A DNA stretch of 64,000 bases from an uncultured Gammaproteobacteria bacterium (GTDB taxonomy: Bacteria > Pseudomonadota > Gammaproteobacteria > Eutrophobiales > Eutrophobiaceae), in assembly GCA_958295485.1 (NCBI GenBank), contig OY282354.1, positions 868,001 through 932,000 on the forward strand, written 5' to 3'. The notes beneath the pieces were generated by a model. That model saw only the letters and a program-made list of their open reading frames with translations, searched no databases and had not been told where the DNA came from. How positions within the stretch are numbered: position 1 is the first letter of the stretch; every line of letters starts with the position of its first letter. This document shows, piece after piece, positions 1 through 22,810 of this stretch. The translations under genes and the position numbers were made by a program.

Positions 1-1484
1 CGTCGTTGAATGACAACCTGGGCCTGGTATCCACCCACGTTATCGTATTCGATACGGACCTTGAGGAGTTGGAGGGAACGACGGAACGGCTGCAATCCGC
101 CTTGCAACAGAATCAGCTCAGCATCCTGTGGGAAACGGTGGGCCAGGTTGACGTGTTTTTTGACATACAGCCTTGCGCCGACCACCGCAGCAGATTTTTC
201 CGGGACATTCCCTTGAACACCTCGCAATTTTCCACCCTGTCCCTGTTTTTCAAATCCGCGCAAGGCTCGATGGTCATCGAAGACCTGAACAAGGAAGAGG
301 CGCAATATGTTTTCCTGTCATCGGATGATACGCCGTATTATTTTTCGCCCTTCACCGGCGGTCGCGGCTTTTTGATCGGCGTCGGGCCAATCCGTAGCGG
401 GAAATCCTTTTTACGCACCTGCATAGGCATTCATTGGCCCAAATACGGTGGCTTCTACCGGGCTATCGACATCGATCCCGGTTCCGAACCAATCGCCCAT
501 GCCTATGGCGAGGACGCCGGCATTGTTCGTTTCGATGGCGTTAATGACCGGGGGTTCAATTTTTTCTCCCAAGCCCGGTCGAGTGAAGACGCCCACTTCA
601 TAACGCACTTGATCCAACAACTCGCGGCGATGATCAACAGTAATGATTCGGAGGAATTGCGGCGCCTGTCGGCCGCGGATCAATTGGCCCTGGACCGGGC
701 GGTGGGGCAGGCGCTAAGGCTGCCGAAACACCTGCAAACCCTGACGACGTTGAGCAAACACTGCCCGAAACAAATACAGCATAAACTGGCCCGGTTTACC
801 GGCGATGGCCCTTATGCCCGCTTGTTCGATGCGAAAGAAGATGCCATAGGCGCTATCGACAAGAAGATCGCGATCTACAATTTAATGGGTATCAGCGACG
901 ACGTGGTCGCAAAGCCGCTGGTAATGGCCGAGATAGCCTACCGGGTGCTGCGCTTCTACGAAAACCCGGCGTACCGGACGTATCCCAAGTGGTTGGACGT
1001 GGATGAATGCCACCACATTTTAGCCAACCCTGAGTTGGCGAAGATGCTGCTGCTGGACCGGATACGCCTCTGGGGAAAGTTGTCGGCTGGTATCGGGATG
1101 TGGACGCAATCCGGCATCGAATTGGGCGGCGTCGAGAACTGGGAGGCGATTCGAAGCGCCGCATCGACCTTTATATTTACTTCCGACCCCGAGCTGAACA
1201 GGGATGCCTACAAATCTATTTTCAATATGAAAGACGGCGAAATAGAGGCTGTCAGGGGATTAATCCCGAAGAAAGAATTTTATCTCATTCAGCGCGACCT
1301 GAACGTCTCGAAAAAATGTATTTTGTCCGTCGAGCCGGAGCAGTACGTGCTGTCAACGTCCAGGCCGGCGGAGCAATCGTTATATTTTGCCAACGTTGAA
1401 CGGTTTGGCTTTGCCGCCGGAGTCAGGAAAACAATGGCGGCGCTCGATTTGAAGGGAGGGAGTATCGATGAAAAAGCGGCTTAG
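1..1484 (+). CDS. virB4: VirB4/TraC-family conjugation ATPase, 5' partial
   Basis: ATPase of the VirB4 family, which powers assembly of a type IV secretion (conjugation) channel at the cytoplasmic face of the inner membrane. The frame is open to the left edge, so the N-terminus is missing; family members are usually about 800 residues. Seen in the visible part: Walker A GPIRSGKS (about residues 127-134), a Walker B strand ending in LDVDE (about 328-332) and a later TQSG motif (about 366), in the order typical of the VirB4 C-terminal lobe. The stop overlaps the next gene by 17 bp, which suggests translational coupling. A TraC-like F-type label is possible, but the following genes are of VirB type. 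The family call is secure; the exact subtype is not. Confidence 0.9.
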   Translation, partial: SLNDNLGLVSTHVIVFDTDLEELEGTTERLQSALQQNQLSILWETVGQVDVFFDIQPCADHRSRFFRDIPLNTSQFSTLSLFFKSAQGSMVIEDLNKEEAQYVFLSSDDTPYYFSPFTGGRGFLIGVGPIRSGKSFLRTCIGIHWPKYGGFYRAIDIDPGSEPIAHAYGEDAGIVRFDGVNDRGFNFFSQARSSEDAHFITHLIQQLAAMINSNDSEELRRLSAADQLALDRAVGQALRLPKHLQTLTTLSKHCPKQIQHKLARFTGDGPYARLFDAKEDAIGAIDKKIAIYNLMGISDDVVAKPLVMAEIAYRVLRFYENPAYRTYPKWLDVDECHHILANPELAKMLLLDRIRLWGKLSAGIGMWTQSGIELGGVENWEAIRSAASTFIFTSDPELNRDAYKSIFNMKDGEIEAVRGLIPKKEFYLIQRDLNVSKKCILSVEPEQYVLSTSRPAEQSLYFANVERFGFAAGVRKTMAALDLKGGSIDEKAA

Positions 1485-2313
1485 TCTATTGGCAGTCAAT
1501 CTTTTTTTCCTTGCGGACGTTTATTCGGGGGGTATCCCGACGGTTGACGTCGGCGTGATAGCCCAACAAGTCCGTTCATACCAACAGCAGCTGCGGGACT
1601 TTGAAACCCAGCTCGAACAGGTGGGCATCAGCAGCGCTCAATTAAGCGCCTTGAATAAACAATTCAGCCAGACCCTCAAGGAATACGACGATTATCTCCG
1701 ACAGGTAAAAGGCCTGCGCCACCTTATCTCGCGCAAGGATTGGGAGGGCTTGTTCCAGGCGCTCAAAAATCAACATGGCATCAGCGCCTATTCCCGGATA
1801 CCCACGCTGAATGCGGCCGGGCCGGCCGGCCGCCAGGCAATCGACGCCCAGGTAAGCTCACTTTATACCGTGCCGGCGGTGGCCGACGACGTGCGTCGGC
1901 AAATCGAGGCCATCGGCGCGGACCCCGACCCCTGGGTGGTCAACGCTGAAAGACAACAGGCGCGCTATGCGGCGTACAGGGATCAGTTGGAAATCGTAAA
2001 AGACAATAACCAGGAATTACTGAAACGTTACCGGAACGTCAGGATAACAAAAGGCAATTTTGCCATAGGGGACAAAAGCGACCTGAATGCCTTGCAGACG
2101 GCGGTGACGACCAATTTCCATCTCATCGATGAATTGCAGGCATTGAATAAGGTTCAGAACCAGCGCCTGTTGCATGAAAATCACGATTACATACACGCGC
2201 TCTCGGTGGCGGAGGCGCAGCGAAAAGCCGAAGTGGCGCGCCTGGAGGAAGTCACCAGTCGCAGCAAACCGGCGCGTTCTTTTCGTTGGAATGGCTTGAA
2301 CCTGACCGATTAA
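1468..2313 (+). CDS. virB5: VirB5/TrbJ-like secretion pilus subunit
   Basis: Periplasmic or extracellular minor pilus component of the VirB channel (VirB5/TrbJ family), 281 residues. The N-terminus KKRLSLLAVNLFFLADVYS is a signal peptide. The rest is largely helical, with coiled-coil-like stretches rich in Gln and Leu (QQVRSYQQQLRDFETQLEQV, then LNKQFSQTLKEYDDYLRQV), as in TrbJ proteins. The ATG lies inside the end of the upstream ATPase gene. Its place between VirB4 and a VirB6-like membrane protein fits the VirB4-B5-B6 order of known operons. The family is low in sequence conservation, so the call rests on order, signal peptide and helical pattern together. Confidence 0.75.
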   Translation: MKKRLSLLAVNLFFLADVYSGGIPTVDVGVIAQQVRSYQQQLRDFETQLEQVGISSAQLSALNKQFSQTLKEYDDYLRQVKGLRHLISRKDWEGLFQALKNQHGISAYSRIPTLNAAGPAGRQAIDAQVSSLYTVPAVADDVRRQIEAIGADPDPWVVNAERQQARYAAYRDQLEIVKDNNQELLKRYRNVRITKGNFAIGDKSDLNALQTAVTTNFHLIDELQALNKVQNQRLLHENHDYIHALSVAEAQRKAEVARLEEVTSRSKPARSFRWNGLNLTD

Positions 2314-2397
2314 AGGGCGCTGGAAGGGAAAAAAAATTATTTGCGGCGGCGTTAATTCGCCGGAAAAAAAACGGAGTTATAAAGGAGTCAAGACATC

Positions 2398-3381
2398 ATG
2401 CCGTATCGATCAGGAGCAGGCGTATTTTTGTTCTTTCTGCCGACGTGGGTTTGGGCCGAGCCTATAGACCCCGCCGGATTCCTGGGTGAGTTTTTCAACA
2501 AGGCAAGCAGGTTGACCGATCAGCTGATCGGCGCATCGACCCAGCTCTCTCGTTTCTCCGAGCTCGAGTGGATTACGTTCACGGTGTTTGCCCTGGTCAT
2601 TGTCCTGATCAAATGGACAGTGGCGGCGGCCGCGGCGAAAGACGTGATCTTTGTCGTCCTGATGATCCTTATCGCCCAGGCCTTGATGCAATCTTATGAT
2701 TACGTATTGGCCGTTATCTGGCAAATCGGTGTCGTCCTGTCCGACGACATCAGCCTCAACACCTATCATGCCCTGAATTTGGGAGCGTCCGGCATCGACT
2801 CGACCGGTGTTTTCCTGTTGGACATGATTAATCTCATCATGGAGCGCATTACCTTTGAACCCGTATCGGGTGAAGTCGGGTTTTTCTCCAGGTTCGCGAA
2901 CATCGGCATAAACATCCGGCAACTGCTGTTCATGGGTATATTTCTCATCGTGCTTTTTATCGTTTACGCCGTATCGTGGATAGTATCCGTTATCGGTTTA
3001 TGGAGCATCTTGTTGGGCAAGGTGCTGGGGCCGATCTTCATACCCTTCCTTATTTTCAAGGGCGCCAATCGATATTTCGACGGCTGGCTGAACTTCATGC
3101 TGGCGGGCATTGCCTACTTCGTCGTTGCGCAGATAAACATTGCATTTACGACTTTAATCGTTACCGGGTTGTTTGATTCGGTTATTACCGCGGGACAGAT
3201 ATTAACGCTGACGCCTGAGGACTTTATCCGGTTGCTTGGTTATTCAGGCTTGTTGCTCGTCTCGGTGTTCGCCATGTTCAGGACCGACCAGGTGGTGAGC
3301 GATTTAATGCAAGGCGGCGTGGGCGCAGCCGGGGCCATCGGCAACGTGGCCTCCGGCATGGCCGCAAGAATGGCGAGGTAG
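2398..3381 (+). CDS. virB6: VirB6/TrbL-like inner-membrane channel protein
   Basis: Polytopic inner-membrane component of the conjugation channel, 327 residues. It begins with a signal-like segment ending in AEP. Further hydrophobic segments lie at about 57-77, 80-115, 172-215, 225-250 and 278-297, with a long periplasmic-type loop between about 118 and 170, as in VirB6/TrbL proteins. The C-terminal tail is Gly/Ala-rich (GGVGAAGAIGNVASGMAA), common in this family. A ribosome site (AAAGGAG) lies 11 bases before the ATG. The 84-base gap before it is the largest in the early part of the operon. VirB6 is known to form the inner-membrane pore with VirB8 and VirB10; that role is inferred here from family and order. 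Confidence 0.82.
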   Translation: MPYRSGAGVFLFFLPTWVWAEPIDPAGFLGEFFNKASRLTDQLIGASTQLSRFSELEWITFTVFALVIVLIKWTVAAAAAKDVIFVVLMILIAQALMQSYDYVLAVIWQIGVVLSDDISLNTYHALNLGASGIDSTGVFLLDMINLIMERITFEPVSGEVGFFSRFANIGINIRQLLFMGIFLIVLFIVYAVSWIVSVIGLWSILLGKVLGPIFIPFLIFKGANRYFDGWLNFMLAGIAYFVVAQINIAFTTLIVTGLFDSVITAGQILTLTPEDFIRLLGYSGLLLVSVFAMFRTDQVVSDLMQGGVGAAGAIGNVASGMAARMAR

Positions 3382-3385
3382 GCCC

Positions 3386-4126
3386 ATGGATACGCAGGCA
3401 AGAACCATCGGCAAGATACCAGGGTCCATGGCGAAACAACTGAACCCGGATAATATCCCCGGGCTGGTAGTAACCAACAACCGGCTGCTGGTCATAAACG
3501 TCGTCCTGCTGCTGGCGTTCATGGGCGCCCTTGCCTACGGGGCCGTCGTGACTTACGTCGCAAAAGATAATGAAAAACTCATATACGTCAAGTTGGCGCC
3601 GGATGGAACCTGGTTCGTCGATACCAGCTTTGCGCACAAGGACGAAACGGATTTTTTTCCCGCAACCATCGATCACCTGCTGGGCAACTACGTCATGCGC
3701 CGGTTCCGCGAAGACCCCGCAACGGTGAGGAACGACTATGGCTATGCCCTGGTATTGATGGACGCGAACCTGGCGCAATTTTTCAAATCACAATCAGGTT
3801 TTAACGCCGCCGGCAAGGCCGCGGAGATAAGGTCCTGTCAAAGGTGCGATATAAAAGAAGTGGAAGTCAGGAATATCCATCATTTCGACGTGGACCGCCT
3901 GGCCGGCGGCAACCCTGATGATACGACTTACAGGACCAACGTTTATATCAATGAGGCGATTCGGTCCTTTGCCGACAACGCCGTATCGAGCCGGAAGAGG
4001 GCCATTATCACCCTGCGGTGGCGGCTTACGCCCAAGTCTGAAATGCCAAGATCAAGAAAAGCGCTGATGGCCAACCCCATCGGCCTGAAAATCATCGAGG
4101 AAAGAGTGCTGGATGATCCGGCTTAA
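3386..4126 (+). CDS. virB8: VirB8/TrbF-like assembly factor
   Basis: Bitopic inner-membrane protein that nucleates the type IV secretion complex (VirB8/TrbF family), 246 residues. A short cytoplasmic N-terminus is followed by one membrane helix (about 34-57, LLVINVVLLLAFMGALAYGA) and a periplasmic NTF2-like domain. Two close cysteines (SCQRC, about 151-155) are unusual and could form a disulfide in the periplasm. It starts 4 bases after the VirB6-like gene and overlaps the VirB9-like gene by 14 bases. The order VirB6-VirB8-VirB9-VirB10 supports the call. Confidence 0.85.
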   Translation: MDTQARTIGKIPGSMAKQLNPDNIPGLVVTNNRLLVINVVLLLAFMGALAYGAVVTYVAKDNEKLIYVKLAPDGTWFVDTSFAHKDETDFFPATIDHLLGNYVMRRFREDPATVRNDYGYALVLMDANLAQFFKSQSGFNAAGKAAEIRSCQRCDIKEVEVRNIHHFDVDRLAGGNPDDTTYRTNVYINEAIRSFADNAVSSRKRAIITLRWRLTPKSEMPRSRKALMANPIGLKIIEERVLDDPA

Positions 4127-4937
4127 ATTCATATTGCTGTTTGTTGTGGTTTCGATGAGCGCCGCCGCGGAAGGCGAACGCTGCCGCGTCATCAAGTACG
4201 AGAAACACAAGTTCGTCAGGATCAAGTCCAGGCTGCATCACGGCACGCACATCGAATTGCCCGAGAGCCTGATTGCCAAGCCCGTTACCGGGAATCAAGA
4301 CCTGTGGGACGTCGAGGGCGGGGATAAACACATCTTCGTCAAGCCGAATGAGCCGGGGACGAAAGAGGGCGGCAGCACCACCGTGACCGCAGTCTCACAG
4401 GGCAATAATGCCTACCATTTTCTCGTGGAACGTTCGGACGGCGACTTTGACCTGTGCGTCCTTGTGACCAATGACGGTGGCTTCCTGCCCGAAAACGCGT
4501 TCGCCGGTTTTGCGCGCCGCAGTGACGAACAAGCGGCATTTTATCAGCAGCAGGTTGCCGCGTTGCAAACCCGGCTGGGTGAAAATGAGCAGGTGGCTTC
4601 ACAAAAGGTGACCGCCGCCATAGATGAGTACAGGACACAATTATTTACCGGCTACAGCTGGAAAGGCGGACGGGCGCCATACGGGAAAAACCTGGTTACC
4701 GACGTCTACGACGACGGCAGGTTTACCTACGTTCGCGTGCAGCACAATTTGGGCGGCGTCATGTCACTGTTTGCGGGCGACAACGGCAGGGAGCAATTCA
4801 TCGATTATAAATATGATGAGGCTAAACGCATTTACGTCGTCACCGGCATTTACGACAAGATATACATGAAATCAGACGAAAAGACGCGGATCACGATTAT
4901 CAGGCGCGGCGACCCGCAAACCCGGCGGGACTTGTAA
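4113..4937 (+). CDS. virB9: VirB9/TrbG-like outer-membrane core protein
   Basis: Component of the outer-membrane core complex of the conjugation channel, 274 residues. A signal peptide (MIRLKFILLFVVVSMSAAA) is followed by an N-terminal beta domain and a C-terminal CagX/VirB9-type domain (about 165-274) with the family pattern around FTYVRV, FIDYKY and a KTRITIIRRG ending. The C-terminal domain binds VirB7 and VirB10 in known systems. No VirB7-like small lipoprotein gene is visible, although a larger lipoprotein is encoded just downstream. The VirB8-like gene overlaps it by 14 bases, and the VirB10-like gene follows after 4. Confidence 0.87.
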   Translation: MIRLKFILLFVVVSMSAAAEGERCRVIKYEKHKFVRIKSRLHHGTHIELPESLIAKPVTGNQDLWDVEGGDKHIFVKPNEPGTKEGGSTTVTAVSQGNNAYHFLVERSDGDFDLCVLVTNDGGFLPENAFAGFARRSDEQAAFYQQQVAALQTRLGENEQVASQKVTAAIDEYRTQLFTGYSWKGGRAPYGKNLVTDVYDDGRFTYVRVQHNLGGVMSLFAGDNGREQFIDYKYDEAKRIYVVTGIYDKIYMKSDEKTRITIIRRGDPQTRRDL

Positions 4938-4941
4938 AAAA

Positions 4942-6261
4942 ATGGCAGACAAGGACAACACCGTCAGTCAAGTCGAAGAACAGCCGACGACTTACAACAA
5001 GCGCTTTCAAATCGTGCTGATCGCCGGGTTTGTGCTGGTCGTCATTATCATGGTCTATGGGTCATTGTTCAGGTCAACGCCCAGGGGCGGCGGGATTGAA
5101 GGGCAGGTGCAACGGGAGCTGAAGAGACAAGCGGCCCCCGACCCCCGGACGGAATTTCGGGAACAGATCAAAAACCAGGAACAACGTCTGCAAAAGCAAA
5201 GGGCGCGGGACGTTTCCGAGCAAAGAAAATATATGGATGAAAGGGCCGGTGAACTTTTACAGAACAATGAGCGGGCGTTGCAGGAATTATTAACCGCGGC
5301 CAAGTCACCGATGGAAGCCTGGAATGAAAATGAGGTTGTCAGGGTGCGTCAATCAAGGCAGGCCGAGTTCAATTTTGATTTTTTTGCCGGTTCAGCGTCA
5401 GGCAGCGGGTATCAGGCGCCAGGTATCGGCAACGGGCCGGATGAATTCCTGAAGCAGGAGCAGGCGGCCCTGGCTGATTTACGCCAGCGGTTTAATCTGG
5501 AGCCAACGGCGTTCGACGGTCGGGACGACTCCCTGTCGCGGGCCGGATCGCTGTCTGATCTTTTGGCGCAAGCAACGGGGCCGGGGAACAATACGATTGC
5601 TGTTCCGCGCAGTTTTAACCTGGCCGGCTATCCTGAATCGGATTTGACCGGGCCGCCGGGGGATGGATTTGAATTATTGTCTGTCGGGTCGGTCATGTCG
5701 GCCAAACTGGACCAGAAAGTCATATCCGATTACGCCGGGCCTTATCGGTGCAGGATTGAACAGAACGTCATGGACGTCGCGCAAAAATTCGTCTTGATAC
5801 CCGCCGGTTCCCTGTGCACGGGAGAGGTTATACAGACCGGCGCCGGTCATCCCAACCGGATAATAAATAACAGGATGGCTTTGTCCGTGCGCTGGATCGT
5901 CAGGCCGGATGGGACGAAGATCAAGTTCGTCAGCAACGTCCTCGACCATGAGGGCATAGGCGCAATAAAAGGAAAAACCGATTATCACTTCCTGGCGCGT
6001 TTCGGTGGCACGGCGGCCTTTGCCATATTGTCCAGCGAGACTTCGAGGCCGGATTTCAGCGCCAATGGTTCCGGCGCGACTTTCAGGTCAGAGGCCGGCC
6101 AGGCCTTGCGCGAGGCCGGGGCCGACGTGGCGTCGCAATATGCCGGCCTGGTTCCGACACAGACTTTGAATTATGGGCAAAAATTGAGGCTGTTTGTCTC
6201 TGAAGACATTTATATCTCACCCTGGAGAGGCGTGTACCAACGCCTGATGAGTCAACGGTAA
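4942..6261 (+). CDS. virB10: VirB10/TrbI-like channel scaffold
   Basis: Inner- to outer-membrane spanning scaffold of the conjugation channel, 439 residues. Cytoplasmic N-terminus, one membrane helix (about 22-44), a long charged coiled coil (about 60-115, rich in Gln, Arg and Glu) in place of the proline-rich stretch of some homologues, and a C-terminal beta-barrel (about 245-439). The barrel contains the conserved core IPAGSLCTGEV, a long hydrophobic antenna-like stretch (ARFGGTAAFAIL) and the LNYGQKLRLFVSEDI ending typical of VirB10/TrbI. It follows the VirB9-like gene by 4 bases and ends just before a very strong ribosome site that starts the pilus gene set. Confidence 0.92.
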   Translation: MADKDNTVSQVEEQPTTYNKRFQIVLIAGFVLVVIIMVYGSLFRSTPRGGGIEGQVQRELKRQAAPDPRTEFREQIKNQEQRLQKQRARDVSEQRKYMDERAGELLQNNERALQELLTAAKSPMEAWNENEVVRVRQSRQAEFNFDFFAGSASGSGYQAPGIGNGPDEFLKQEQAALADLRQRFNLEPTAFDGRDDSLSRAGSLSDLLAQATGPGNNTIAVPRSFNLAGYPESDLTGPPGDGFELLSVGSVMSAKLDQKVISDYAGPYRCRIEQNVMDVAQKFVLIPAGSLCTGEVIQTGAGHPNRIINNRMALSVRWIVRPDGTKIKFVSNVLDHEGIGAIKGKTDYHFLARFGGTAAFAILSSETSRPDFSANGSGATFRSEAGQALREAGADVASQYAGLVPTQTLNYGQKLRLFVSEDIYISPWRGVYQRLMSQR

Positions 6262-6271
6262 GGAGGCCTGA

Positions 6272-7882
6272 ATGAAAATAAAAACGGTGGTTGTGATACC
6301 AGCTTCATCCGGCGGGCAGGCACGGAGGCCCTTCGCCCGGCCCAGGCTGGCGGGGGTCATGGCGTCCGCCCTTATCTGGTTCAGGCTGGCGCGGGCGATG
6401 GCGTCCGCCCTTGTCTGGTTCAGGTTGGCGCGGGCGATGGCGTCCGCCCTTGTCTGGTTCAGGTTGGCGGGGGTGATGGCGTCCGCCCTTGTCTGGTTCA
6501 GGCTGGCGGGGGTGACGGCGTCCGCTTTTGTCCTGTTCAGCGGGTGTTCAGGGTTGCAAACGCCGACTGATAATTCAAAGTCGCCGCCGGTCAGTCCTGG
6601 AGCGAGCGCCGTGTCCATGCCCATCTTGCAGACGCGTGTCAGGATGGTCTATCCGGCTGCAACCAGGACCGTCGGTGGCGCAACAAGCTACATGCTGGCG
6701 CCGCATTCTTACCGGCCGGCCTATCGTGGCGGCCCTGGCGATGCCATTGCCCGAAAAACGTTCATCGATAACCACGGAGTCGCCCCCGTGCCTTTATACA
6801 TGGCGCTGCAACGGTTAATGGGGGATGACGACCAGGTCGTATTGGACCAGGAAAGAAGAATATATGCGTTTCAAAAAAGGGGACTGGGCCAGGCAAGCGT
6901 GGTTTTCGCCGATTTAACGACCCTGGAAGCGCAATCGACCGGCTATGGTGACAGGACAACGAACGAGCGACGAATGACAGTCCCATTCAGGGGCGAGCGA
7001 GCGACCGCTTACGCCGGCAAGGCGCGGAACGAGCGGCGGGTGACGGTCCCGTTCGGGGGCGCGCCACCGGCTGCTTACGCCGGCGAGGCGCGGAGCGAGC
7101 GGCGGGTGACGGTCTCATTCGAGGGTGAGCAACCGGCCGCTTACGCTGGCGAGGCGCGGAACGAGCGGCGGGTGATGGTTCCATTCGAAGGCGCGCCACC
7201 GGCCGCTTACGCCGGCGAGGCGCGGAACGAGCGACGGGTGACGGTCCCGTTCGGGGGCGCGCCACCGGCCGCTTACGCCGGCGAGGCGCGGAACGAGCGG
7301 CGGGTGACGGTCTCATTCGAGGGTGAGCAACCGGCCGGTTATGCTGACGGAGCGCCGAACGACCGCGAGATAACGGCCCCGTCCGGGCGCGCGCAATCGG
7401 CTGCTCACGCCGGCGAGACACCAGCCGCCGCCAATCATTTCCAGGTCGACAACCGGGCAGACAACCAAGCCGACAACCGGGCCGACAACCAGGCCGACAA
7501 CCAGGCCGACAATCAGGCCGACAACCGGGCCGACAACCGGGCCGACAACCGGGCCGACAACCAAGCAGACAACCAGGCCGACAACCGGGCCGACAACCGG
7601 GCCGACCCCTTTGAATTTTGTTACGCCATTCAATTCAAAAGCAAGGTCATGTTGTCCGGAATAGTTGAGGATTATTTCTCAAAATGCGGCTTTGCCGAGG
7701 TCTCCTGGAAATTAGGTGACCCGGGAAGGTACACCGATTACCAGATCCTCCACGACGTCAGCATCCCCTTGCCCAGGCGACACGAAGACCTGATCGAATT
7801 GCTGCACGCCCGCTTCAGGATCAAAACCGAAATTGATGATGACAACCGGGTTTACTTTTATGATGAAAAAAACTCACTGTAA
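6272..7882 (+). CDS. pilL: PilL/TcpQ-like pilus lipoprotein with tandem repeats
   Basis: Outer-membrane lipoprotein likely to act with the downstream secretin in thin-pilus assembly, 536 residues. The C-terminus (about 450-536) looks like the TcpQ/PilL domain of type IVb pilus systems. The start is set by AAGGAGG 6 bases upstream. The lipobox (LFSGC, Cys about 92) comes after an unusually long leader made of repeated 13-residue hydrophobic units. The middle has seven 22-residue units with YAGEAR..ERRVTV, then thirteen 4-residue DNRA/DNQA units forming a flexible Asp/Asn-rich linker. Each repeat ATG could also start translation with a shorter leader. Position between VirB10 and the secretin matches a VirB-linked IncI1-type pil operon. 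The TcpQ assignment is by pattern and context. Confidence 0.72.
   Translation: MKIKTVVVIPASSGGQARRPFARPRLAGVMASALIWFRLARAMASALVWFRLARAMASALVWFRLAGVMASALVWFRLAGVTASAFVLFSGCSGLQTPTDNSKSPPVSPGASAVSMPILQTRVRMVYPAATRTVGGATSYMLAPHSYRPAYRGGPGDAIARKTFIDNHGVAPVPLYMALQRLMGDDDQVVLDQERRIYAFQKRGLGQASVVFADLTTLEAQSTGYGDRTTNERRMTVPFRGERATAYAGKARNERRVTVPFGGAPPAAYAGEARSERRVTVSFEGEQPAAYAGEARNERRVMVPFEGAPPAAYAGEARNERRVTVPFGGAPPAAYAGEARNERRVTVSFEGEQPAGYADGAPNDREITAPSGRAQSAAHAGETPAAANHFQVDNRADNQADNRADNQADNQADNQADNRADNRADNRADNQADNQADNRADNRADPFEFCYAIQFKSKVMLSGIVEDYFSKCGFAEVSWKLGDPGRYTDYQILHDVSIPLPRRHEDLIELLHARFRIKTEIDDDNRVYFYDEKNSL
6359..6514 (+). repeat. Four 39-bp tandem repeats in lipoprotein leader
   Basis: Four near-identical 39-bp units, plus a diverged flanking unit on each side, encode MASALVWFRLARA or a close variant. 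Every full unit begins with an in-frame ATG. Together they multiply the hydrophobic part of the signal peptide of the PilL-like lipoprotein. Confidence 0.93.
6944..7405 (+). repeat. Seven 66-bp tandem repeats in pilL-like gene
   Basis: Seven 66-bp units with no spacers encode 22-residue blocks beginning YAGEAR. The first (6944-7009) and last (7340-7405) are diverged and the inner five are close to identical. The unit keeps the reading frame, so gain or loss of units would change only linker length. Confidence 0.92.
7448..7603 (+). repeat. Thirteen 12-bp repeats coding DNRA/DNQA
   Basis: Thirteen 12-bp units (GACAACCGGGCC or GACAACCAGGCC) in frame, giving a DNRA/DNQA run of 52 residues. It forms a hydrophilic linker between the 22-residue repeats and the C-terminal TcpQ-like domain. 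Confidence 0.94.
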
Positions 7883-9452
7883 GAAGGCCGATTCTTTTCC
7901 AGGCCGGCTGCCCGTCGCCCTGCTGGGCCTGTCGCTCCTCGTAGCTTGCAGTGAAAATATCAAGCAGCGCAGTGACGATTTTGCCGCCGTTCAGGAACGC
8001 CACCAGGAGATACTGGCGGAGCGAAAGATCGCACAGACCAAACGCGCCCAGGCAAAGCGTATCGACGTCTCCAGGGACAGGGCCTGGTTATACGAAACTT
8101 ACCGGGCCACTTACCAAAATCAGGGGTTGCGGGAAACCTTGCAACGCCTGGTTCCGGGCTACCCGGTTACCTATGCGCTGCCGCCGGATTATAACCCGAC
8201 GGTCAGCTCTACCCCCACTGCCGTGACCGTGGAAGATCACCTGGACGCCATTGTCTTGCAGGCCAACGTCGGTTACGAGTTTCACCAGGGAGTCCTGTTG
8301 ATCATACCGATGATCACCAGGAAATATGAAATACCGCTGTACGGCGGCGGCAGCAACATTATCAACGTCAGCAGTAACAATTTAGGGTTGGACCAGAACA
8401 ATGCCAGTGGATTTGAAAATAATGTCAGCAGTCAACTGTCCGCGGAAAATGACGTCCACCAACTGGTTAACACGGTGTTGGGAATCTCATACTGCGAACA
8501 AAAGACAACCGCCCCCGAGAGCATCATGGAGATTGTTGCAGGGGCCGATCAATCCCTGGCGGGCGCTCAGAAAATAGCTTCCTATACACACAATGACCGG
8601 GAATGTTACAGCATCAGTCCTACCGGCAACCTGCTTTCCATTACCGCCAGACCGCAGCGGGTTGTCCTGTTTGATGAAGCCTACAAAAGATGGCTAAGGG
8701 CAGTCACCCGGCAGGCGAACATCAAGATCACCACTATTCGGCTGGACGTCACCGACCTGGCGCAACAGCAGATCGATCTCTCCCTGGTGCGCAATGCGAG
8801 TATCGCCGCCAATATCACCAATCTCTCCGGGGACCTGGTCGGCATCGAGGCCGGCGGCGGTGTTCTGAGTATAAAAGTGGATGATCCGGACAACCCATTG
8901 GACACAACGCAAATCGTCCTGAAAGCCCTGGCCCGCATAGGCAACGTTTCCATCGATGACACCAAGGAAATACTGGTTTACAACAACCGCCTGGTCACCC
9001 TGCGCAACTACAGCATCCGCCGCTTCGTAGAGCAGACCAGCGTCCAGCAAACCGATGCCGGCGGCACCAGCTTGTCCACCCCGACCGTGGAAATCGGTGA
9101 ACTTGAAATCGGCCAGGCCATCAATATCCTGCCCACCCTGACCGATGAGTTGATCGCGCTCCACATCGTCATTAATGAAGCCAAGATAGATTCGTTTGAA
9201 ACCTATGAAATTGCCGGCACGTCCGGCGTGCTGCCGAACAACTCAGGCAGCGACAACGTCTTTGACGTCACCATGGAAGACGGCGAGACCGTTCTTGTGG
9301 CCTCGACCCACCGTGAAGAAATCGAAGTGAGGACCGACCGCTCCGGCCTGTTGCCCGTGTGGCCCTTGAACCGGGTCAGCAGCAACGCCGCCTCCGGCGA
9401 CAAACGACTCACGCAGACCTTATTCCTGATACAAGGCTCATTCAAATTATGA
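7860..9452 (+). CDS. pilN: PilN-type secretin lipoprotein
   Basis: Outer-membrane secretin of the type IVb pilus (PilN/BfpB-like), through which the pilus exits. Start at 7860 gives MMKKTHCKK and a lipoprotein signal ending LLVAC (Cys about 30); an earlier in-frame ATG at 7833 only adds residues deep inside the upstream gene. N-terminal periplasmic region, secretin N-domain-like stretch (about 270-380), then the secretin beta domain with PTVEIGELEIGQAINILPT and the terminal QTLFLIQGSFKL. Size (about 530 residues) is normal for PilN. It overlaps the PilL-like gene by 23 bases and the PilO-like gene by 4 (ATGA). Confidence 0.88.
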   Translation: MMKKTHCKKADSFPGRLPVALLGLSLLVACSENIKQRSDDFAAVQERHQEILAERKIAQTKRAQAKRIDVSRDRAWLYETYRATYQNQGLRETLQRLVPGYPVTYALPPDYNPTVSSTPTAVTVEDHLDAIVLQANVGYEFHQGVLLIIPMITRKYEIPLYGGGSNIINVSSNNLGLDQNNASGFENNVSSQLSAENDVHQLVNTVLGISYCEQKTTAPESIMEIVAGADQSLAGAQKIASYTHNDRECYSISPTGNLLSITARPQRVVLFDEAYKRWLRAVTRQANIKITTIRLDVTDLAQQQIDLSLVRNASIAANITNLSGDLVGIEAGGGVLSIKVDDPDNPLDTTQIVLKALARIGNVSIDDTKEILVYNNRLVTLRNYSIRRFVEQTSVQQTDAGGTSLSTPTVEIGELEIGQAINILPTLTDELIALHIVINEAKIDSFETYEIAGTSGVLPNNSGSDNVFDVTMEDGETVLVASTHREEIEVRTDRSGLLPVWPLNRVSSNAASGDKRLTQTLFLIQGSFKL

Positions 9453-10618
9453 TCGAAACCATCAATATCAATGACCGGGAAGTCGAACTCTGCATCAATG
9501 CAGGGAGCGTGACGCTGCCCGAAGAAGGCAGCCGCCGGCTGTTTATCAGCAGACAGCTTTCGGCTGTAAAGAAAAAGTACCACCTCGAATCCGAGGGGTT
9601 CATGTTTTTTGATGAAGGCAAAGCCATCTCCATCGCCGCCCAGGTCGTTCAATGGATTCATGCGGACATTCAACCTGGCCGACACTTCATCATATTGCCC
9701 TGCGACAACGTGGTTTACGTGGCCACTATCCAGGTGCATGAGAATTATATATTGGTGGAGAAAGAAGATTTACTGTCCTTTGAAGACAGTATGCAGCTGA
9801 TCAGGCACAACCCGTTGAACTGTCAAGTGGCCGAATTGGGCAAGCTCAGCCACGCCTTCGCGCAAAACAGTATCGAACTCAGGGACCTGCATATCAACCT
9901 CGACCCAGGGAAAAACAATCCGTTTTTGTTAAAGCGCGGCTACCGCGTCAGCGAGCTTCTCAGCCTGGGAATAGCGCCTGTCATAGCGGCCTGGTCAGCC
10001 ATCCTGTTAGTCTCGACAATCGATGTTGAAGAAATAAAAGAAACTACCACCCAAACCCTGAGCAAACCCCGTGCCCCGGCGCGAATTGATACGGACTTGA
10101 ACGCCATCGATGCGTTGCTGGCCGCGTTCACCGTGTTATTGGCTTACAACCTGGAAGACATTCAGGTACAAAAAACCCGAAGAGGATATAACGCGACGGC
10201 CACGGGCAGGTATGACCAGGCATTCTCGCTGGCCCGGCTGAACGAAATTGCCCGGCAATTGGAAGGCCGGATCAGTGTGCAGAAAAACAGCTGGACGCTC
10301 AATTCGTCCCTGTTCAAGCCGCCTGCCGGCGAAACCGAAGAGTTGTTGCCCCTGCGCGTCAGCTTCGAGCGATACCGGCGATTTGCCCGCGTCATCGATG
10401 CCCGGTTTTCCATCATCGGCGTCAGCCAAAGGCAACGATCGGCCCTGGGGGTGATCGAATTATCCATGCCCCGGCCAAACCCTTACACCCTCAGGCAAGC
10501 CGTTCAATTGCTGCAGGAAACCAACCTGCACGGCTACCTGCAAAGGGCCCGTATCAATACCCGACCCCATGCGGCCTGGCAAGACCTGACGGTGACCATC
10601 GAAATCACAGGAACCTGA
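9449..10618 (+). CDS. pilO: PilO-like pilus accessory protein
   Basis: Inner-membrane accessory protein of the thin pilus, about 389 residues, by order and architecture the PilO protein of IncI1-type systems. It has an N-terminal cytoplasmic part, one membrane helix (about 174-192, SLGIAPVIAAWSAILLVS) and a C-terminal periplasmic domain. The ATG at 9449 overlaps the secretin stop (ATGA). Sequence alone gives only a weak family signal; the assignment leans on being between PilN- and PilP-like genes. Confidence 0.68.
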   Translation: MIETININDREVELCINAGSVTLPEEGSRRLFISRQLSAVKKKYHLESEGFMFFDEGKAISIAAQVVQWIHADIQPGRHFIILPCDNVVYVATIQVHENYILVEKEDLLSFEDSMQLIRHNPLNCQVAELGKLSHAFAQNSIELRDLHINLDPGKNNPFLLKRGYRVSELLSLGIAPVIAAWSAILLVSTIDVEEIKETTTQTLSKPRAPARIDTDLNAIDALLAAFTVLLAYNLEDIQVQKTRRGYNATATGRYDQAFSLARLNEIARQLEGRISVQKNSWTLNSSLFKPPAGETEELLPLRVSFERYRRFARVIDARFSIIGVSQRQRSALGVIELSMPRPNPYTLRQAVQLLQETNLHGYLQRARINTRPHAAWQDLTVTIEITGT

Positions 10619-10621
10619 GCA

Positions 10622-11281
10622 ATGAAAACACTTTTATTCCTTATCTTGTTTCTGGCGCTGCCGGGAGACGCGCAAGAGCAGCCCGACCTGGGAACCGGTC
10701 TCCCCGAAACAGAAACCGCCGGGGCCGCGTCCACAATCCCCGGTTTAACCGCATGCCTCCATTGCAGCGAGGCCGAACAGCTGATCATCGACCTGAACTA
10801 CTATAAACAAGTCCTCAACCTCCTGGAGCAGATCAATCAGCAACGGGACAAAATCGACCCGCAACTATTGAAATCAGTCCATGCCGTATTGGTTAAAGCC
10901 AGGCCCGACTTGGCGGGCATACTGAAAACCCGGCCCAGGCCCCAATCGAAATCGGCAAAACCGGCGAAAAAGGCAAGACAGCCGGTAAAAAAACCGACAG
11001 CAAAGCCAGCGAAAAAACCCGTCCCCAGGAAAGGCATTGAAGGCCTGGTGGTGGGTCACGTCAATGAAGGCAATAAGGCCCTGGACGTTCAGCCCAGCGT
11101 CGTGTTGGTCAAGGACGGCCGGCCATTTTCCTTATCCATCGGCGCCACCCTCGAACATAACCAGCGCACCTACAAAATACTCAAGGCGGACTTCATCGAA
11201 GATCCCCAAAAGGGCAATCGACATGAAGTGCGCCTGCAAGATCAAACCAGTAAAAAAATCCACGTCGTTCCCTGGCAATAA
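10622..11281 (+). CDS. pilP: PilP-like periplasmic pilus protein
   Basis: Exported protein of 219 residues with a signal peptide (MKTLLFLILFLALPGDAQ). After a predicted helical part with two cysteines (CLHC, about 40-43) comes a Lys/Pro/Ala-rich linker (about 100-137), then a compact C-terminal domain (about 140-219), as in PilP proteins that bridge inner membrane and secretin. The stop overlaps the start of the ATPase gene by one base (TAATG). Confidence 0.7.
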   Translation: MKTLLFLILFLALPGDAQEQPDLGTGLPETETAGAASTIPGLTACLHCSEAEQLIIDLNYYKQVLNLLEQINQQRDKIDPQLLKSVHAVLVKARPDLAGILKTRPRPQSKSAKPAKKARQPVKKPTAKPAKKPVPRKGIEGLVVGHVNEGNKALDVQPSVVLVKDGRPFSLSIGATLEHNQRTYKILKADFIEDPQKGNRHEVRLQDQTSKKIHVVPWQ

Positions 11282-12897
11282 TGTTCAAGAATTCGCTCAA
11301 AAAGCAAAAAGCCCGGTTGACCCTGCCGGAGTTCGGTCAAAACCCCTCGGCAAAACCGGCCGGCGCCGCGCCGCTGATCACCAACTATGATGAGCTGGTT
11401 GACGTGCAAATCACCACGGATCCCACCGTCCTGACTGAAATACAAAAAATGAACGGGGCCTGCCCCGGCTTCATATCCGAAGACCGGGAGCTTTACTGCA
11501 TTGATCGCAATGACCTGGACAAACAGGAAGCCCTGGCGCTGAACCAGCTTGTCAACCTGGTCAGGGAAACGCAACGGGAAGAACCCGTTATCAACCAGAC
11601 TACCCGTTCCGTTTTTGAATCATTCATCAACAAAAACCAGGAAATTTCGCTGCAACAACAAACCCGGGAAAGCTCCAACCAGGTCAATGAATTGCTCTCG
11701 CAGGCCATCAGGAACCATGCCACCGATATTCACCTGGAGATCCGCAGCAACAAGACGACCATCTATCAACGCATCTATGGGCGGCTTTCAGTCAGTCAAT
11801 CTTTCGATAAGAGCCAGGGAATAAAGATCGTTGCGGCCATCTGGAACATCTACGTCAACCAACCGTTCAGCAGCGGCGACGTAGCCAAGGACGGCCGTTT
11901 CCACTTCGATTACAAGAACCAGAAATGGCTGTGTCGGGTGTCTTACGGCTATTCCAAAGTCACCGATGAACGCAGCATGGCCATCCGTCTGCGGGACATG
12001 AAACACATCCCCGACGTCACTACCCTGGGCTACCATGAAACCCAACTGAAAACACTCAAACAAACCTCCGTCAACAAGGGCATCACCCTCATCGTGGGCG
12101 CGGTCAACTCCGGCAAATCCACCACCCAGACCGCCATTATGCAGTCCCGCCCGCCGCTGGAGAAAAACCTGGAGATCTCTGATCAAATCGAAGTTGAACT
12201 GGATAATTTTGTCCAGCTCCAATTGCCGATCGAAGGCACGGAGGACATCATCCGGGAGAACAAGGAAAAATTACGGCGGATCTCCACCCGGCATGACGTG
12301 GACTTTATCGCCATCAACGAAATACGCGACCGGGAGACCGCGGCCATGGCCTCATCCATGATGCTCCAGGGCACCACCGGCATCGCCTCCATTCACGGCT
12401 CCAGCTGGGTCGATGCCATTAACCGGCTGGTCTCGCAAACCGACCTGGGGATAAGCCCCGACATCCTGTTCTCCGAATCATTCCTCAGTCTGGTTATCGT
12501 CCAGTCACTGGTCGGCGTGCTCTGTGAACAATGCAAGCTCCGTAATCATACGGACCCGTTCTGGCAGCGCTATTACCAAACCGGTTTCGGTGAGGACGCC
12601 GGCAGAAAGATTCGATTTCACAACCTTGAGGGCTGCCCGGCCTGTCGGCATTCCGGCATCCGGACGCTGACCCTGGTGGCTGAAACCATCCCTATCGTCG
12701 AGGCTAATCGGTACTTGCTCATGAACACCACCAACCCGCAGGCGATGCGCGACTGGATGAACGAAAACGACGTATTGAACATTCACCAGCACGCCTGGAC
12801 AAAAATCGTCGCCGGCGATTTGGATCCGCTGATGACACAACGAAAGATCGGCAATTTCAACAAGGAAAATCTCTACCATGCCTGGCATCATCAATAA
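11281..12897 (+). CDS. pilQ: PilQ-type pilus assembly ATPase (GspE/PilB family)
   Basis: Hexameric secretion ATPase that drives pilus extension, 538 residues. Walker A (GAVNSGKST, about 274-282), Asp box (about 300-315), Walker B-like DFIAINEIRD (about 341-350) and the His box SIHGSS (about 370) are in the expected order. Paired cysteines CEQC (about 418-421) and CPAC (about 458-461) form the zinc-binding tetracysteine of GspE-type enzymes. It overlaps the PilR-like gene by 20 bases. No VirB11 ATPase is present in this window, so this is the only GspE/VirB11-superfamily motor seen. Confidence 0.93.
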   Translation: MFKNSLKKQKARLTLPEFGQNPSAKPAGAAPLITNYDELVDVQITTDPTVLTEIQKMNGACPGFISEDRELYCIDRNDLDKQEALALNQLVNLVRETQREEPVINQTTRSVFESFINKNQEISLQQQTRESSNQVNELLSQAIRNHATDIHLEIRSNKTTIYQRIYGRLSVSQSFDKSQGIKIVAAIWNIYVNQPFSSGDVAKDGRFHFDYKNQKWLCRVSYGYSKVTDERSMAIRLRDMKHIPDVTTLGYHETQLKTLKQTSVNKGITLIVGAVNSGKSTTQTAIMQSRPPLEKNLEISDQIEVELDNFVQLQLPIEGTEDIIRENKEKLRRISTRHDVDFIAINEIRDRETAAMASSMMLQGTTGIASIHGSSWVDAINRLVSQTDLGISPDILFSESFLSLVIVQSLVGVLCEQCKLRNHTDPFWQRYYQTGFGEDAGRKIRFHNLEGCPACRHSGIRTLTLVAETIPIVEANRYLLMNTTNPQAMRDWMNENDVLNIHQHAWTKIVAGDLDPLMTQRKIGNFNKENLYHAWHHQ

Positions 12898-13909
12898 ACG
12901 ACTGCAAGCCATGAAATCCGTTTACCTGCGTGCGCTGTTGTTCAATAACGATGCCCGCGTGTATTTCTATTCAACCTTGAGGGAATACGTGAAAAGTCAT
13001 TTTCCCTTGCCACAGATATTCAATCATATCCAGCAACAGGACAACAATCCGGCCATGAAGGAAATCGCCAAGCTCAGTAAAAAAGCCATTCGCAACAATC
13101 AGCCCTTCGCCGTTCACTATTGCCAATCCGGTCTCTTTACCGAACATGAAAGCAATTTGCTGATATTGGGCGAGCGCCACGATTGCCTGGAGACCATCAC
13201 AACGCTGCTGCTGAGTCAGGAAGACAGCGCCCCGCCCCTGGTCCAGATCCTCTCAGCCGGCGCCCAATGGATACTCATGACCCTGGTCATTACCGCCATG
13301 GCCATTTACACGCTGCCGTACCTGCAGGATTTTACTACCGGCTACCAGTGGTTTTTCGATTACGTGACCTTTGTCCAGGCCTGGTGGTTGGAACTGACGG
13401 GTGTCCTGGGCGGCGGCCTGTTGCTCTATTACTGGTGCCTGTACCACCTGACCGGCCCGCTACGGGGAATGCTGATGACCGTCGGCTGTTTCCGGCTACA
13501 CGCCATGCTCATCGAGCGGCAATTTCTGAAAATCAGCAGCGCCTTGATGGAAACCAGGCTACCGCCCAATGAATTTCTGCAATTGATGGAGAATACCTTC
13601 GGCAGAAATAAACTGTTCAAACAGAACCTGCAGAAAGGCAGGATGAAACTCAAGGAAGCCTCCTTGTTGCAGATCCTCAAGGAGGTGCTGTCACCCCATG
13701 CCTACAACCACGTGCTGTCCTGCACGCCGAACCAGACCCCTGATGAAATCGCCAGGGGGTTCAGCGCGGCCGAGCGCATGTTGCAAATCAGGCTGAAAAA
13801 AACCATCAAGACTTACCAGATTTTTTACACCCTGCTGTTTTTATCAACCAGCGCGGGCATCACCATTCCCTTCGCCTTTGTTTCCATGGGCATGGGCATT
13901 CGACTATAA
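12878..13909 (+). CDS. pilR: PilR/GspF-like inner-membrane platform protein
   Basis: Inner-membrane platform protein for pilus assembly, 343 residues (family about 350-400). Three hydrophobic regions at about 130-150, 173-193 and 318-340 separate two cytoplasmic helical domains, the GspF/TadC arrangement. ATG at 12878 overlaps the ATPase gene end; 15 bases separate its stop from the first pilin-like gene. PilR works directly with the PilQ ATPase in R64-type systems. Confidence 0.85.
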   Translation: MPGIINKRLQAMKSVYLRALLFNNDARVYFYSTLREYVKSHFPLPQIFNHIQQQDNNPAMKEIAKLSKKAIRNNQPFAVHYCQSGLFTEHESNLLILGERHDCLETITTLLLSQEDSAPPLVQILSAGAQWILMTLVITAMAIYTLPYLQDFTTGYQWFFDYVTFVQAWWLELTGVLGGGLLLYYWCLYHLTGPLRGMLMTVGCFRLHAMLIERQFLKISSALMETRLPPNEFLQLMENTFGRNKLFKQNLQKGRMKLKEASLLQILKEVLSPHAYNHVLSCTPNQTPDEIARGFSAAERMLQIRLKKTIKTYQIFYTLLFLSTSAGITIPFAFVSMGMGIRL

Positions 13910-13924
13910 ACGGAGGAAAACGTT

Positions 13925-14368
13925 ATGAACCAGGTTGCTATCGTATTCGGATTAATCGTTACAGCCGTCGTCGGCATCGGCGCGTACACGGCCCTGGCGC
14001 CGCTTGTTACGCAATCCGAGAACCGGAATATGGAAGCCGAAATCATTAATGTCATCAATGCAACGTCGGAATATCGTTGGGTCAACCGCAACGCCGCCGG
14101 TCTTGCCACTGCGGATTTTGAAGAACTGGTCGATAACGGCTACCTGGACACGGACTTATATGATGATGGTACCGACGAGAGTGTGATTGAGACGACTATT
14201 ACCGCCGCGCCCGGCGCGACGCCACCCACTGTCACCTATGACGCCGGCGATACACAAAGCTGTGGGTGGCTGCTCGACCGGGCGGAGAATGCCCGTTGGG
14301 TCAACGTCGATGCGGATAACGCCGCCAATGCCTGTAATACTAATACACTGACCGTGGTGATTGAGTAA
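13925..14368 (+). CDS. Pilin-like protein without leader (PilS position)
   Basis: Probable major pilin of the thin pilus by position after PilR, 147 residues. The N-terminus goes straight into a hydrophobic helix (VAIVFGLIVTAVVGIGAYTAL) followed by an amphipathic helix. Near the C-terminus two cysteines (SCGW and ACNT) are spaced as in the disulfide loop of type IVb pilins. There is no basic leader ending in Gly and no Glu5; an in-frame stop at 13907 rules out a longer start. A strong GGAGG site lies 9 bases before the ATG. Either leader processing does not occur or this is a diverged pilin class. Confidence 0.62.
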   Translation: MNQVAIVFGLIVTAVVGIGAYTALAPLVTQSENRNMEAEIINVINATSEYRWVNRNAAGLATADFEELVDNGYLDTDLYDDGTDESVIETTITAAPGATPPTVTYDAGDTQSCGWLLDRAENARWVNVDADNAANACNTNTLTVVIE

Positions 14369-14371
14369 TAC

Positions 14372-14824
14372 ATGCACGTTATCTTATATCACTTTGCCCT
14401 GGCGTCGATGTTTGCCTTGGGCATGACGACATTGATGCAACCGCACCGGCATACCCGGGAGTATATGCAAACCCTCAGGGACGTGGAGCTGGCCGGGGTG
14501 GAATACATCGCGCAAAATTGCAACGCCTTGCCCGGCGCGGTAACGCATACGCAGCTGCAAACGTTGGGCAACCTGCCGGCCGGGTTCGACAATCAAGACG
14601 CGGTTTTTACCTTGAACCTGGCCCGGCATCCGGCGATTAACTGGAACGTCAGCGGGAATGCCGAATACCTCGCGTTTCTCGCTACCCGAACCTTGGGCGC
14701 ATTTGAAACCGACGGCGCTTATTCTTTTTTACCTGCTCATGACGTGACGTTTTTCCGGGCGGCAAACAGCAGCTATAACCTGTTTGCCTATGCAGAAAAT
14801 GATTTTTCCTGTACCCCGCCATGA
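14372..14824 (+). CDS. Small membrane-anchored pilus protein (PilM-like?)
   Basis: 150-residue protein with one N-terminal hydrophobic helix (about 3-19), a helical stretch with conserved-looking REYMQTLRDVELAG, and a C-terminal globular part with two cysteines. It starts 3 bases after the PilS-position gene. Size and place resemble the small PilM protein or a minor pilin of IncI1-type pil operons, but I do not recognise a firm family. Confidence 0.5.
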   Translation: MHVILYHFALASMFALGMTTLMQPHRHTREYMQTLRDVELAGVEYIAQNCNALPGAVTHTQLQTLGNLPAGFDNQDAVFTLNLARHPAINWNVSGNAEYLAFLATRTLGAFETDGAYSFLPAHDVTFFRAANSSYNLFAYAENDFSCTPP

Positions 14825-14872
14825 CTGGTTGCCGTTACATATGAAACAGCATCAACAAGCCGAGCTCTCGCT

Positions 14873-15565
14873 ATGAACGTTCTTCCCACTATTTATTTCA
14901 TGCTGGTATTCAGCCTGTTGTCCCTGGGGCTGACTTTTCGAATAGAAGAGCGGGCCCGGTCGTTGGTCCCCGATCGCGTGCAAAATACCATTGTGCAGTT
15001 GGCCCTGGCCCAACATCGGCATATCGCCGACCCGGCTAATCCGAACTTCGGCGCTTATGCCGGGGATATCGCCACGTTGGCGGCAACCGGCTACCTGCCT
15101 GTCTGGGAAGCGGACCCGGATTTTGTTTTTACCGATACCATCCCGCCGGGACTGGAAATCCAATACACCGCCGGGGATAACGCCGAAGCCGGCCGCGTTG
15201 CCGCCCGACTGGGCGCTATCGCGCAAGTGACCGGCAATGTCGTTGCCGTTGGCTTTGCCGACCCCACTGACCTGGCCCTCCTGGATGAGTTTGTCGAGCT
15301 GGCCGGGGATACCATGTCCGGCGCCCTCGAGTTCGAGGCCGGGATTGGCACAGCCATTGACCTCAACGGCAACAACCTGACCAACGCGATGAACATCTTT
15401 GCCCAGCAAATCAACGCTGCCAATGAGGTCAATGCCGATACGGTCAATGCCGATACGGTCAATGCCAATACCGTTTTAGTTGAAGACGGCGGCTCAGGGC
15501 GCATCGAAGCTGACATCGTTATTGGCGCCACCGCAACCTTTAATGACATATTGGTTGCACCCTGA
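14873..15565 (+). CDS. PilV-like minor pilin / pilus tip protein
   Basis: 230-residue protein with an N-terminal hydrophobic helix (about 4-20) and a pilin-like helical stretch (RARSLVPDRVQNT). The C-terminal half has the DTMSGALEF..DLNGNNLTNAMN pattern seen in PilV tip proteins and phage tail fibres, then short repeats NADTVNADTVNANTV. In R64 the PilV C-terminus is switched by a shufflon; no inverted shufflon repeats or recombinase are seen here. It again lacks a class-III leader. The next gene begins 28 bases later with its own ribosome site. Confidence 0.6.
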   Translation: MNVLPTIYFMLVFSLLSLGLTFRIEERARSLVPDRVQNTIVQLALAQHRHIADPANPNFGAYAGDIATLAATGYLPVWEADPDFVFTDTIPPGLEIQYTAGDNAEAGRVAARLGAIAQVTGNVVAVGFADPTDLALLDEFVELAGDTMSGALEFEAGIGTAIDLNGNNLTNAMNIFAQQINAANEVNADTVNADTVNANTVLVEDGGSGRIEADIVIGATATFNDILVAP

Positions 15566-17352: not shown

Positions 17353-17619
17353 ATGAAAAAATATCTGATGGTAGTTCTGCTTTGTACCCTGGTGGCGTCT
17401 CCAGTCCCGGCCAACTCGTTCTTTGAGGCGGCGAAGGACAAGATGCTCAAATGTTCGTTTGAAGCGGCAAAGTCGGAGGTCGTCAAACGCGCCAAAGACA
17501 AAGTCTATAAGCGTACTAAAACCAGGGAAAGCATTGAAGATAAGTTGATACGGGACAACCTTGTTTGTGCCATAGAAACCATTGATTCGGTGTTTACTTA
17601 CAAACGGCTTTTCGATTAA
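17353..17619 (+). CDS. Small exported protein, last gene of pilus operon
   Basis: 88-residue protein of unknown function. The start at 17353 has AGGAG 9 bases upstream and gives a clean signal peptide (MKKYLMVVLLCTLVASPVPA, cleavage before NSFF). The mature part is short, basic and helical (FFEAAKDKMLKCSFEAAKSE), with two cysteines. It is followed within 21 bases by a strong terminator, so it ends the conjugation/pilus transcription unit. In-frame sequence upstream to 17140 has no ribosome site and is not taken as coding. Confidence 0.6.
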   Translation: MKKYLMVVLLCTLVASPVPANSFFEAAKDKMLKCSFEAAKSEVVKRAKDKVYKRTKTRESIEDKLIRDNLVCAIETIDSVFTYKRLFD

Positions 17620-17639
17620 TTTCATTTGTTTGCTAACCG

Positions 17640-17670
17640 AAAAAGCCGATCTCCGGATCGGCTTTTTCTT
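17640..17670 (+). terminator. Rho-independent terminator of pilus operon
   Basis: Perfect 12-bp stem AAAAAGCCGATC/GATCGGCTTTTT with loop TCCG, followed by TTTTTCTTT. It closes the long plus-strand operon. Confidence 0.92.
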
Positions 17671-17755
17671 TATACCCGCCGTCGCGCCGCGCAACGCCCG
17701 CGTTATTTCAGTTCCCCCTTGGGGTGATGGTAATGCCATCGGTAAAATTAAAGGT

Positions 17756-18268
17756 ATGGGAGTGAGAAATTATAGGGATGAGGGGTTGCTCCCCCTGAAA
17801 AATCTCCCGGCTTCCCTGATATTAACTGATCCGGGGCTTGCAAAAACCGCTTCCAATGAGCGCGTGGCTCTAAACCAGATAGCGCGGATTCTAAAAGTTC
17901 CGTCATCAGGCGCGCGGCGCATTTCAACGCCGGACGGAGTTGACGATGTCTTTATAACAAAAGAATCGTTGCGTCATTTCATTGAGCAGGGGGGGAACAG
18001 GGCGCGATTTGTTAAATACATTGAGCCAACCCTGGAAAATCCTTTAGAGGTTTGGCTCGCCGTGGAAAAAATCGGGCGCAAAAAAATCCTTCGTCGCCGG
18101 TTTATTTCCGTTTTTGACGGAGACAAGAAAACGCGGACGCTGGTGGTGACTCAAGAGAACGATGATGGATCGCTATTCTGGACCTTCGTCCCAAACACAA
18201 AAGAAAAAAACTACATGGATAACAAGCGAGAGGGTGTATTACTCTATAAAATAGAGGAGGGTCAGTAA
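17756..18268 (+). pseudogene. Mu gpF-like C-terminus with PBECR-type nuclease domain
   Basis: About 170 residues from the ATG at 17756 (weak AAAGG site upstream); sequence farther upstream crosses the terminator and is not credible. The C-terminal 90 residues show the pattern IEPTLENPLEVWLAVEK, RRRFISVF, then NKREGVLLYK. This resembles the PBECR (barnase/EndoU/colicin/RelE-like) nuclease domains fused to head-morphogenesis proteins of Mu-like phages. A full gpF-like protein is far longer, so this is a fragment or a stand-alone domain. A broken gpG gene follows, as in Mu-like head gene order. Domain call by pattern memory, moderate certainty. Confidence 0.58.
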
Positions 18269-20711: not shown

Positions 20712-20748
20712 CATCATCATGTCACCTTAATAAAAAGGGGTCGTTTTA

Positions 20749-22777: not shown

Positions 22778-22810
22778 GAAAAGCGCATCCCCATGCGGTT
22801 GTCTGATGAT

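Follow-up and report, generated by a model that had tools for sequence, protein, structure and literature searches.

Conserved leaderless pilin-like genes in an R64-type thin-pilus locus of an uncultured gammaproteobacterial genus

Type IV pilins, pseudopilins and archaellins are defined by a class III leader and the peptidase that cuts it, and annotators use both to find the genes. CofA of the CFA/III pilus and TcpA of the TCP pilus are made as prepilins whose leader is removed by a dedicated peptidase, and the mature proteins begin with Met. A leader was present in all eight of the plasmid PilS proteins that we examined. The class III leader is hydrophilic, 6-26 aa long, ends in Gly and is cut by prepilin peptidase, and a 2014 review takes this signal peptide as the motif that defines all such subunits (PMC4471445). 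In known systems the N-in topology is also set by the basic leader, following the positive-inside rule. Known pilins mutated at Glu5 form no homopolymers; Glu5-less pilins can join mixed filaments, and archaeal pilins often lack Glu5 (PMC4471445). Our search of the open literature found no report of leaderless pilins; most of the subscription literature lay outside it, so that absence is not proven. Nothing was found in the open literature on sponge-associated relatives.

The window analysed here is a stretch of 64,000 nucleotides of the source genome (G000:C1:868001-932000). It holds a thin-pilus gene set like those of R64 and TCP, comprising PilL, N, O, P, Q and R and three small genes (6272-15565), directly 3' of a VirB-type type IV secretion system (T4SS). 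Left of the window, after recBCD, lie VirB3, a VirB2-like small protein and the start of VirB4, all named by eye. The features of the locus are as follows.

1..1484, + strand: VirB4-position gene of the linked T4SS, named from its position between the VirB2/B3-like genes and VirB5; starts left of the window
1468..6261, + strand: VirB5, VirB6, VirB8, VirB9 and VirB10 of the linked T4SS
6272..7882, + strand: PilL/TcpQ-position protein, repeat-expanded, named from position
7833..9452, + strand: PilN-family secretin with lipobox LVAC (TIGR02520, E 4e-10)
9452..10618, + strand: PilO-position protein, named from position only; kept in congeners
10622..11281, + strand: PilP-position protein, named from position only; kept in congeners
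11281..12897, + strand: PilQ extension ATPase with Walker A, EIRDRET and two CxxC pairs intact
12878..13909, + strand: PilR/GspF-like platform protein (PF00482, E 2.4e-5)
13925..14368, + strand: gene A, predicted leaderless type IVb pilin at the PilS position, 147 aa
14372..14824, + strand: gene B, leaderless minor-pilin-like protein resembling the PilV pilin domain, 150 aa
14873..15565, + strand: gene C, leaderless protein with a PilV-like shaft (GDTMSGAL), 230 aa
15594..17183, + strand: gene D, exported protein with seven Cys repeats, a candidate adhesin or pilus cargo
17353..17619, + strand: gene E, small exported protein, conserved 3' of D

The locus resembles the R64 (IncI1) thin pilus in its gene order (PilL-N-O-P-Q-R, then the PilS and PilV positions), its PilN-family secretin (TIGR02520) and its T4SS linkage. 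As in R64-type type IVb pilus machines, the secretin, the extension ATPase and the platform protein are encoded in one operon. Unlike R64, however, it has no PilM before PilN and no shufflon, its pilin-position genes lack the leader, the Gly at -1 and Glu5, and both PilU and the PilT transglycosylase are missing. Its T4SS is of the VirB type, whereas that of R64 is Dot/Icm-like. The best plasmid match to PilQ by E-value, from Nitratiruptor, belongs to a T2SS-type cluster and was set aside as uninformative.

Several features of the surroundings were recorded alongside. Imperfect repeats (ERRVTVPFGGAPPAAYAGEARN; ADNRADNQ) make the PilL/TcpQ-position gene ~200 aa longer than its counterparts in species G004 and G005. 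The seven repeats of D are 44 aa each (WSPARxxxC...TQTRTLADCR...SRTVTGLKSCP), are reminiscent of thrombospondin type 1 repeats and are conserved 3' of the pilins. Just 3' of the operon, the open reading frame at 17582-18268 encodes a PBECR2 nuclease domain (PF18810, E 1e-22). Two sulfatase-like genes adjoin the locus (18811-27546), and the locus of species G001 also has a sulfatase-like neighbour. Further away, 5' of recBCD, a gene pair resembles by eye the MotA/MotB-type genes of Zorya-like defence systems (G000:C1:848041-850385).

Gene A encodes a protein beginning MNQVAIVFGLI (start MNQVAIVFGLIVTAVVGIGAYTALAPLVTQSENRN), with GGAGG 8 nt 5' of its ATG. The pilR stop codon (TAA, 13907-13909) lies in frame six codons 5' of this start with no ATG, GTG or TTG in between, confirming an earlier statement that a stop just upstream rules out a longer start for the PilS-position gene. 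In-frame stops also occur two codons 5' of gene B and 17 codons 5' of gene C in the source genome (16 open codons); for gene C of G004 the distance shrinks to 3 codons (two open). All three products open immediately with a hydrophobic helix, the most hydrophobic 19-residue window starting at residues 2-6, in line with the ~21 hydrophobic N-terminal residues of a type IV pilin, and no species of the genus has a charged residue ahead of the helix in A, B or C. Across seven species, and with the upstream stops, no hydrophilic Gly-ending leader of 6-26 aa is found on any of them. In 7/7 species E32 is the first charge in A, hence Glu5 is missing as well. The preliminary description of this locus, which reported three consecutive pilin-position genes that lack a leader and enter the helix from their first residues, is thus upheld.

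PilR and A are present in six other genomes of the genus, giving seven species in total; the congeners are metagenome assemblies, some of them draft. Among the 193 relatives searched neither gene occurred outside the genus, save for weak general PilR-type matches, and no relatives of A were found in the plasmids or viral contigs searched. A scan of genome contigs for A returned six loci, matching the six congeners. Protein A is 76-82% identical in five congeners and 49% identical in G005. It begins at the identical MNQ in 7/7 species, behind a GGAGG- or AGGAGG-like ribosome site (weaker in G005), and an in-frame stop lies 6-8 codons 5' in 5/7. The N-terminus is the best-kept part of the protein: M1, N2, Q3 and A5 to I11 are invariant even in G005 (10 of the first 11 residues). 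B and C are also conserved and leaderless across the congeners. By the Nei-Gojobori method dN/dS was lowest for A (0.06-0.10) among the genes tested; B gave 0.12-0.24, C 0.12-0.19, PilR 0.15-0.27 and PilQ about 0.11, all rough values with synonymous changes near saturation. The same start, the leaderless N-termini and the low dN/dS in seven species show that the missing leader is a maintained state, neither decay nor an annotation slip. On the same grounds (shared starts, frames and lengths, N-terminal conservation and low dN/dS across all seven species), a wrong start, a frameshift or decayed genes can be rejected as scarcely credible, even with draft metagenome assemblies among the sequences. 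Neither PilQ relatives (E 1e-45) nor C-profile relatives were found in 369 genomes of the class and 398 of the phylum, so no leader-bearing intermediate is known.

The locus had initially been taken for part of a mobile element, a view that its distribution does not support. The gene etfB lies right of it in G000, G001 and G004, which suggests one chromosomal site common to these species; at the left flank, G005 has different genes. With etfB on the same side in three species and the system present in 7/7, the locus looks chromosomal and vertically inherited rather than mobile. No MOBP relaxase (PF03432, the only relaxase class searched) was found in the seven genomes. The genes of a VirB11-like ATPase and a coupling protein, divergently placed, adjoin argH at G000:C1:958313-961223, ~75-90 kb from the virB cluster.

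A, B and C were assigned to no family by Pfam, NCBIfam or PHROGs, whose matches were names at chance level, and profile searching of PDB sequences had no result. An AlphaFold model of A, built from the seven-sequence alignment, shows one helix (3-53) followed by a small alpha/beta head, at medium confidence (mean pLDDT 63.5; residues 17-27 under 50). Plain Foldseek with this model gave no E below 0.001. VIA-align was run on the best 957 Foldseek chains, and among these type IV pilins filled the first eight places, the first four being type IVb. The model aligned with S. Typhi PilS at Z 8.2 (rmsd 3.4, 107 aligned), the CofA filament at Z 7.5 (rmsd 2.9, 133 aligned; model 1-147 on chain 1-208), the CofA crystal at Z 7.3 and the TcpA filament at Z 6.8 (rmsd 3.1, 129 aligned; model 1-144 on 1-196). 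C. difficile pilins came after TcpA, and unrelated chains reached Z 4.0 or less. Since the Foldseek E-values are not significant, the fold evidence is the clean separation of the VIA-align list, not one score. The prediction is thus of a type IVb pilin fold for A, with a long N-terminal helix and an alpha/beta head. The predicted fold matches CofA and TcpA over its full length, and model residue 1 pairs with mature residue 1 of both. A differs from both in that they are made as prepilins.

Sequence comparison distinguishes the three genes, which had been treated alike at the outset. A has two Cys at PilS-like places in its C-terminal half in six species, as in R64 PilS; in G005 the second Cys is placed otherwise. 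Its match to the PilS profile is marginal (E 0.035-0.05; score 16.4 against a maximum of 15.3 in 40 shuffles) and lies in the Cys region, where VTYDAGDTQSC of A aligns weakly with VTYDKVPQDAC of PilS. A looks like a PilS encoded straight in its mature form. B and C resemble different parts of PilV, the adhesin at the tip of R64-type pili: the pilin domain in the case of B (E 2.5e-5) and the shaft in that of C (E 8.7e-5), both far above all 40 shuffles. They differ from PilV in being split over two genes and in having no leader and no variable C-terminus. Of the structure predictions proposed earlier for the three products, that of A gave a pilin fold, and that of C, modelled by itself with no alignment, told nothing (pLDDT 39.7).

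No prepilin peptidase and no SLT lytic transglycosylase were found in or near the locus, as had been described for PilU and PilT, and the operon thus has neither of the two dedicated enzymes of an R64-type machine. Two SLT transglycosylases occur elsewhere in the genome. A genome-wide search showed that the cell is not peptidase-free: the chromosome carries a single canonical PilD gene (C1:1312055), whose product has the CxxC pairs and GMGFGDLKL. PilD-type matches were found in 5/7 species, the other two being drafts; G001, 94% complete, had none. A second peptidase match in the source assembly, on contig C4 (30.7 bits), was excluded as the host PilD, as it lies on a 36 kb contig with foreign-looking genes. 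The genes of this contig (G000:C4:1-20000) look archaeal or otherwise foreign, and it may be a contaminant of the assembly. Leader-bearing prepilins are encoded beside a GspE-type gene (C1:206-208 kb) and elsewhere, every leader ending in Gly. Given PilD and these prepilins in the same genome, the cell is able to process prepilins, and the pilins of the thin-pilus operon are without a processing signal. No leader-bearing pilin, which would have undercut the preliminary description, was found in the window. An orphan prepilin with a typical leader (MKARKQSGFTLVEIAMVLVLVG) lies ~45 kb 5' of gene A (G000:C1:835913-836809); as a candidate for the missing subunit this prepilin (C1:836018) was rejected, being beyond recBCD and other genes and unlinked to the locus.

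On balance, we favour the reading that the locus specifies a type IVb pilus of divergent R64/TCP type, with A as the major pilin and B and C as minor pilins, all translated as mature-form subunits. Counting for it are the same starts, the selection on A, the fold in mature register, the PilV matches and the intact machine genes. The further claim, that a type IV filament is built wholly from leaderless subunits, with prepilin processing dispensed with and a retained initiator Met replacing the cut end, we regard as evenly poised. The hydrophobic N-terminal helix alone would insert as an N-in/C-out anchor. Asn at position 2 disfavours methionine aminopeptidase, and Met1 would accordingly be deformylated yet retained; with a mature-form N-terminus that keeps Met1, neither a cytoplasmic tail nor a prepilin peptidase would be needed. 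PilR and the ATPase PilQ may then assemble unprocessed subunits into a filament that passes through the PilN secretin; B and C would be initiating or tip pilins, and D an adhesin or cargo that is exported. With the leader lost, the dedicated peptidase PilU would have become dispensable. A cyanobacterium without PilD is harmed by its uncut prepilin (PMC8546353), in keeping with the notion that processing cannot be given up unless the leader goes too. Assembly faces two real objections, the loss of Glu5 and that of the basic leader: nothing basic replaces the leader, and that the invariant Asn2 and Gln3 might partly take over the role of Glu5 is a guess.

The strongest rival, which we consider unlikely, places A, B and C in the inner membrane as accessory proteins with a pilin fold, comparable to the leaderless PilM of R64; the filament would then be made from a PilD-processed host pilin that bears a leader, or there would be no filament. 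R64 PilM and four relatives likewise begin with a membrane helix and have no leader, members of the family are about 145 aa long like A, the genome encodes PilD and leader-bearing prepilins, and A lacks Glu5. However, PilM has no Cys pair, and its profile comparison with A, B and C stays at noise level (E 0.09-0.65 over small alignments). A occupies the PilS position, its model aligns with type IVb major pilins from end to end, it has the PilS-like Cys pair and is under selection, and the window offers no leader-bearing pilin for such a filament, the nearest being the unlinked orphan beyond recBCD.

Less probable still is a short pseudopilus or mixed envelope polymer that would serve the T4SS, or the export of D, as a piston or tip complex, and in which a leader would again go unused. 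The tight linkage to the VirB T4SS and to the exported repeat protein D is compatible with this, as is the ability of Glu5-less pilins to enter mixed filaments (PMC4471445), but the operon encodes a secretin and an extension ATPase of its own, as those of surface pili do. That A is processed after all, by host PilD cutting after Gly9 or by signal peptidase I after the helix (ALA before Pro26), is very improbable. Gly9 is invariant in A and PilD is found in most of the species, yet a nine-residue hydrophobic piece is no leader, the cut would leave a helix 9 residues shorter than those of CofA and TcpA, and G001 has no PilD match. B and C have no Gly at the matching place, which makes a cryptic cut after Gly9 unlikely. 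Pro at +1 blocks signal peptidase I, so Pro26 should prevent the second cut.

If the mature-form pilus is real, a processing step held to be universal would not be mechanically required for filament assembly. The genus would then provide a natural exception in which to examine the roles of the leader, in topology and as a lock against early assembly, and that of Glu5. Searches that depend on the leader would also be overlooking real pilins.
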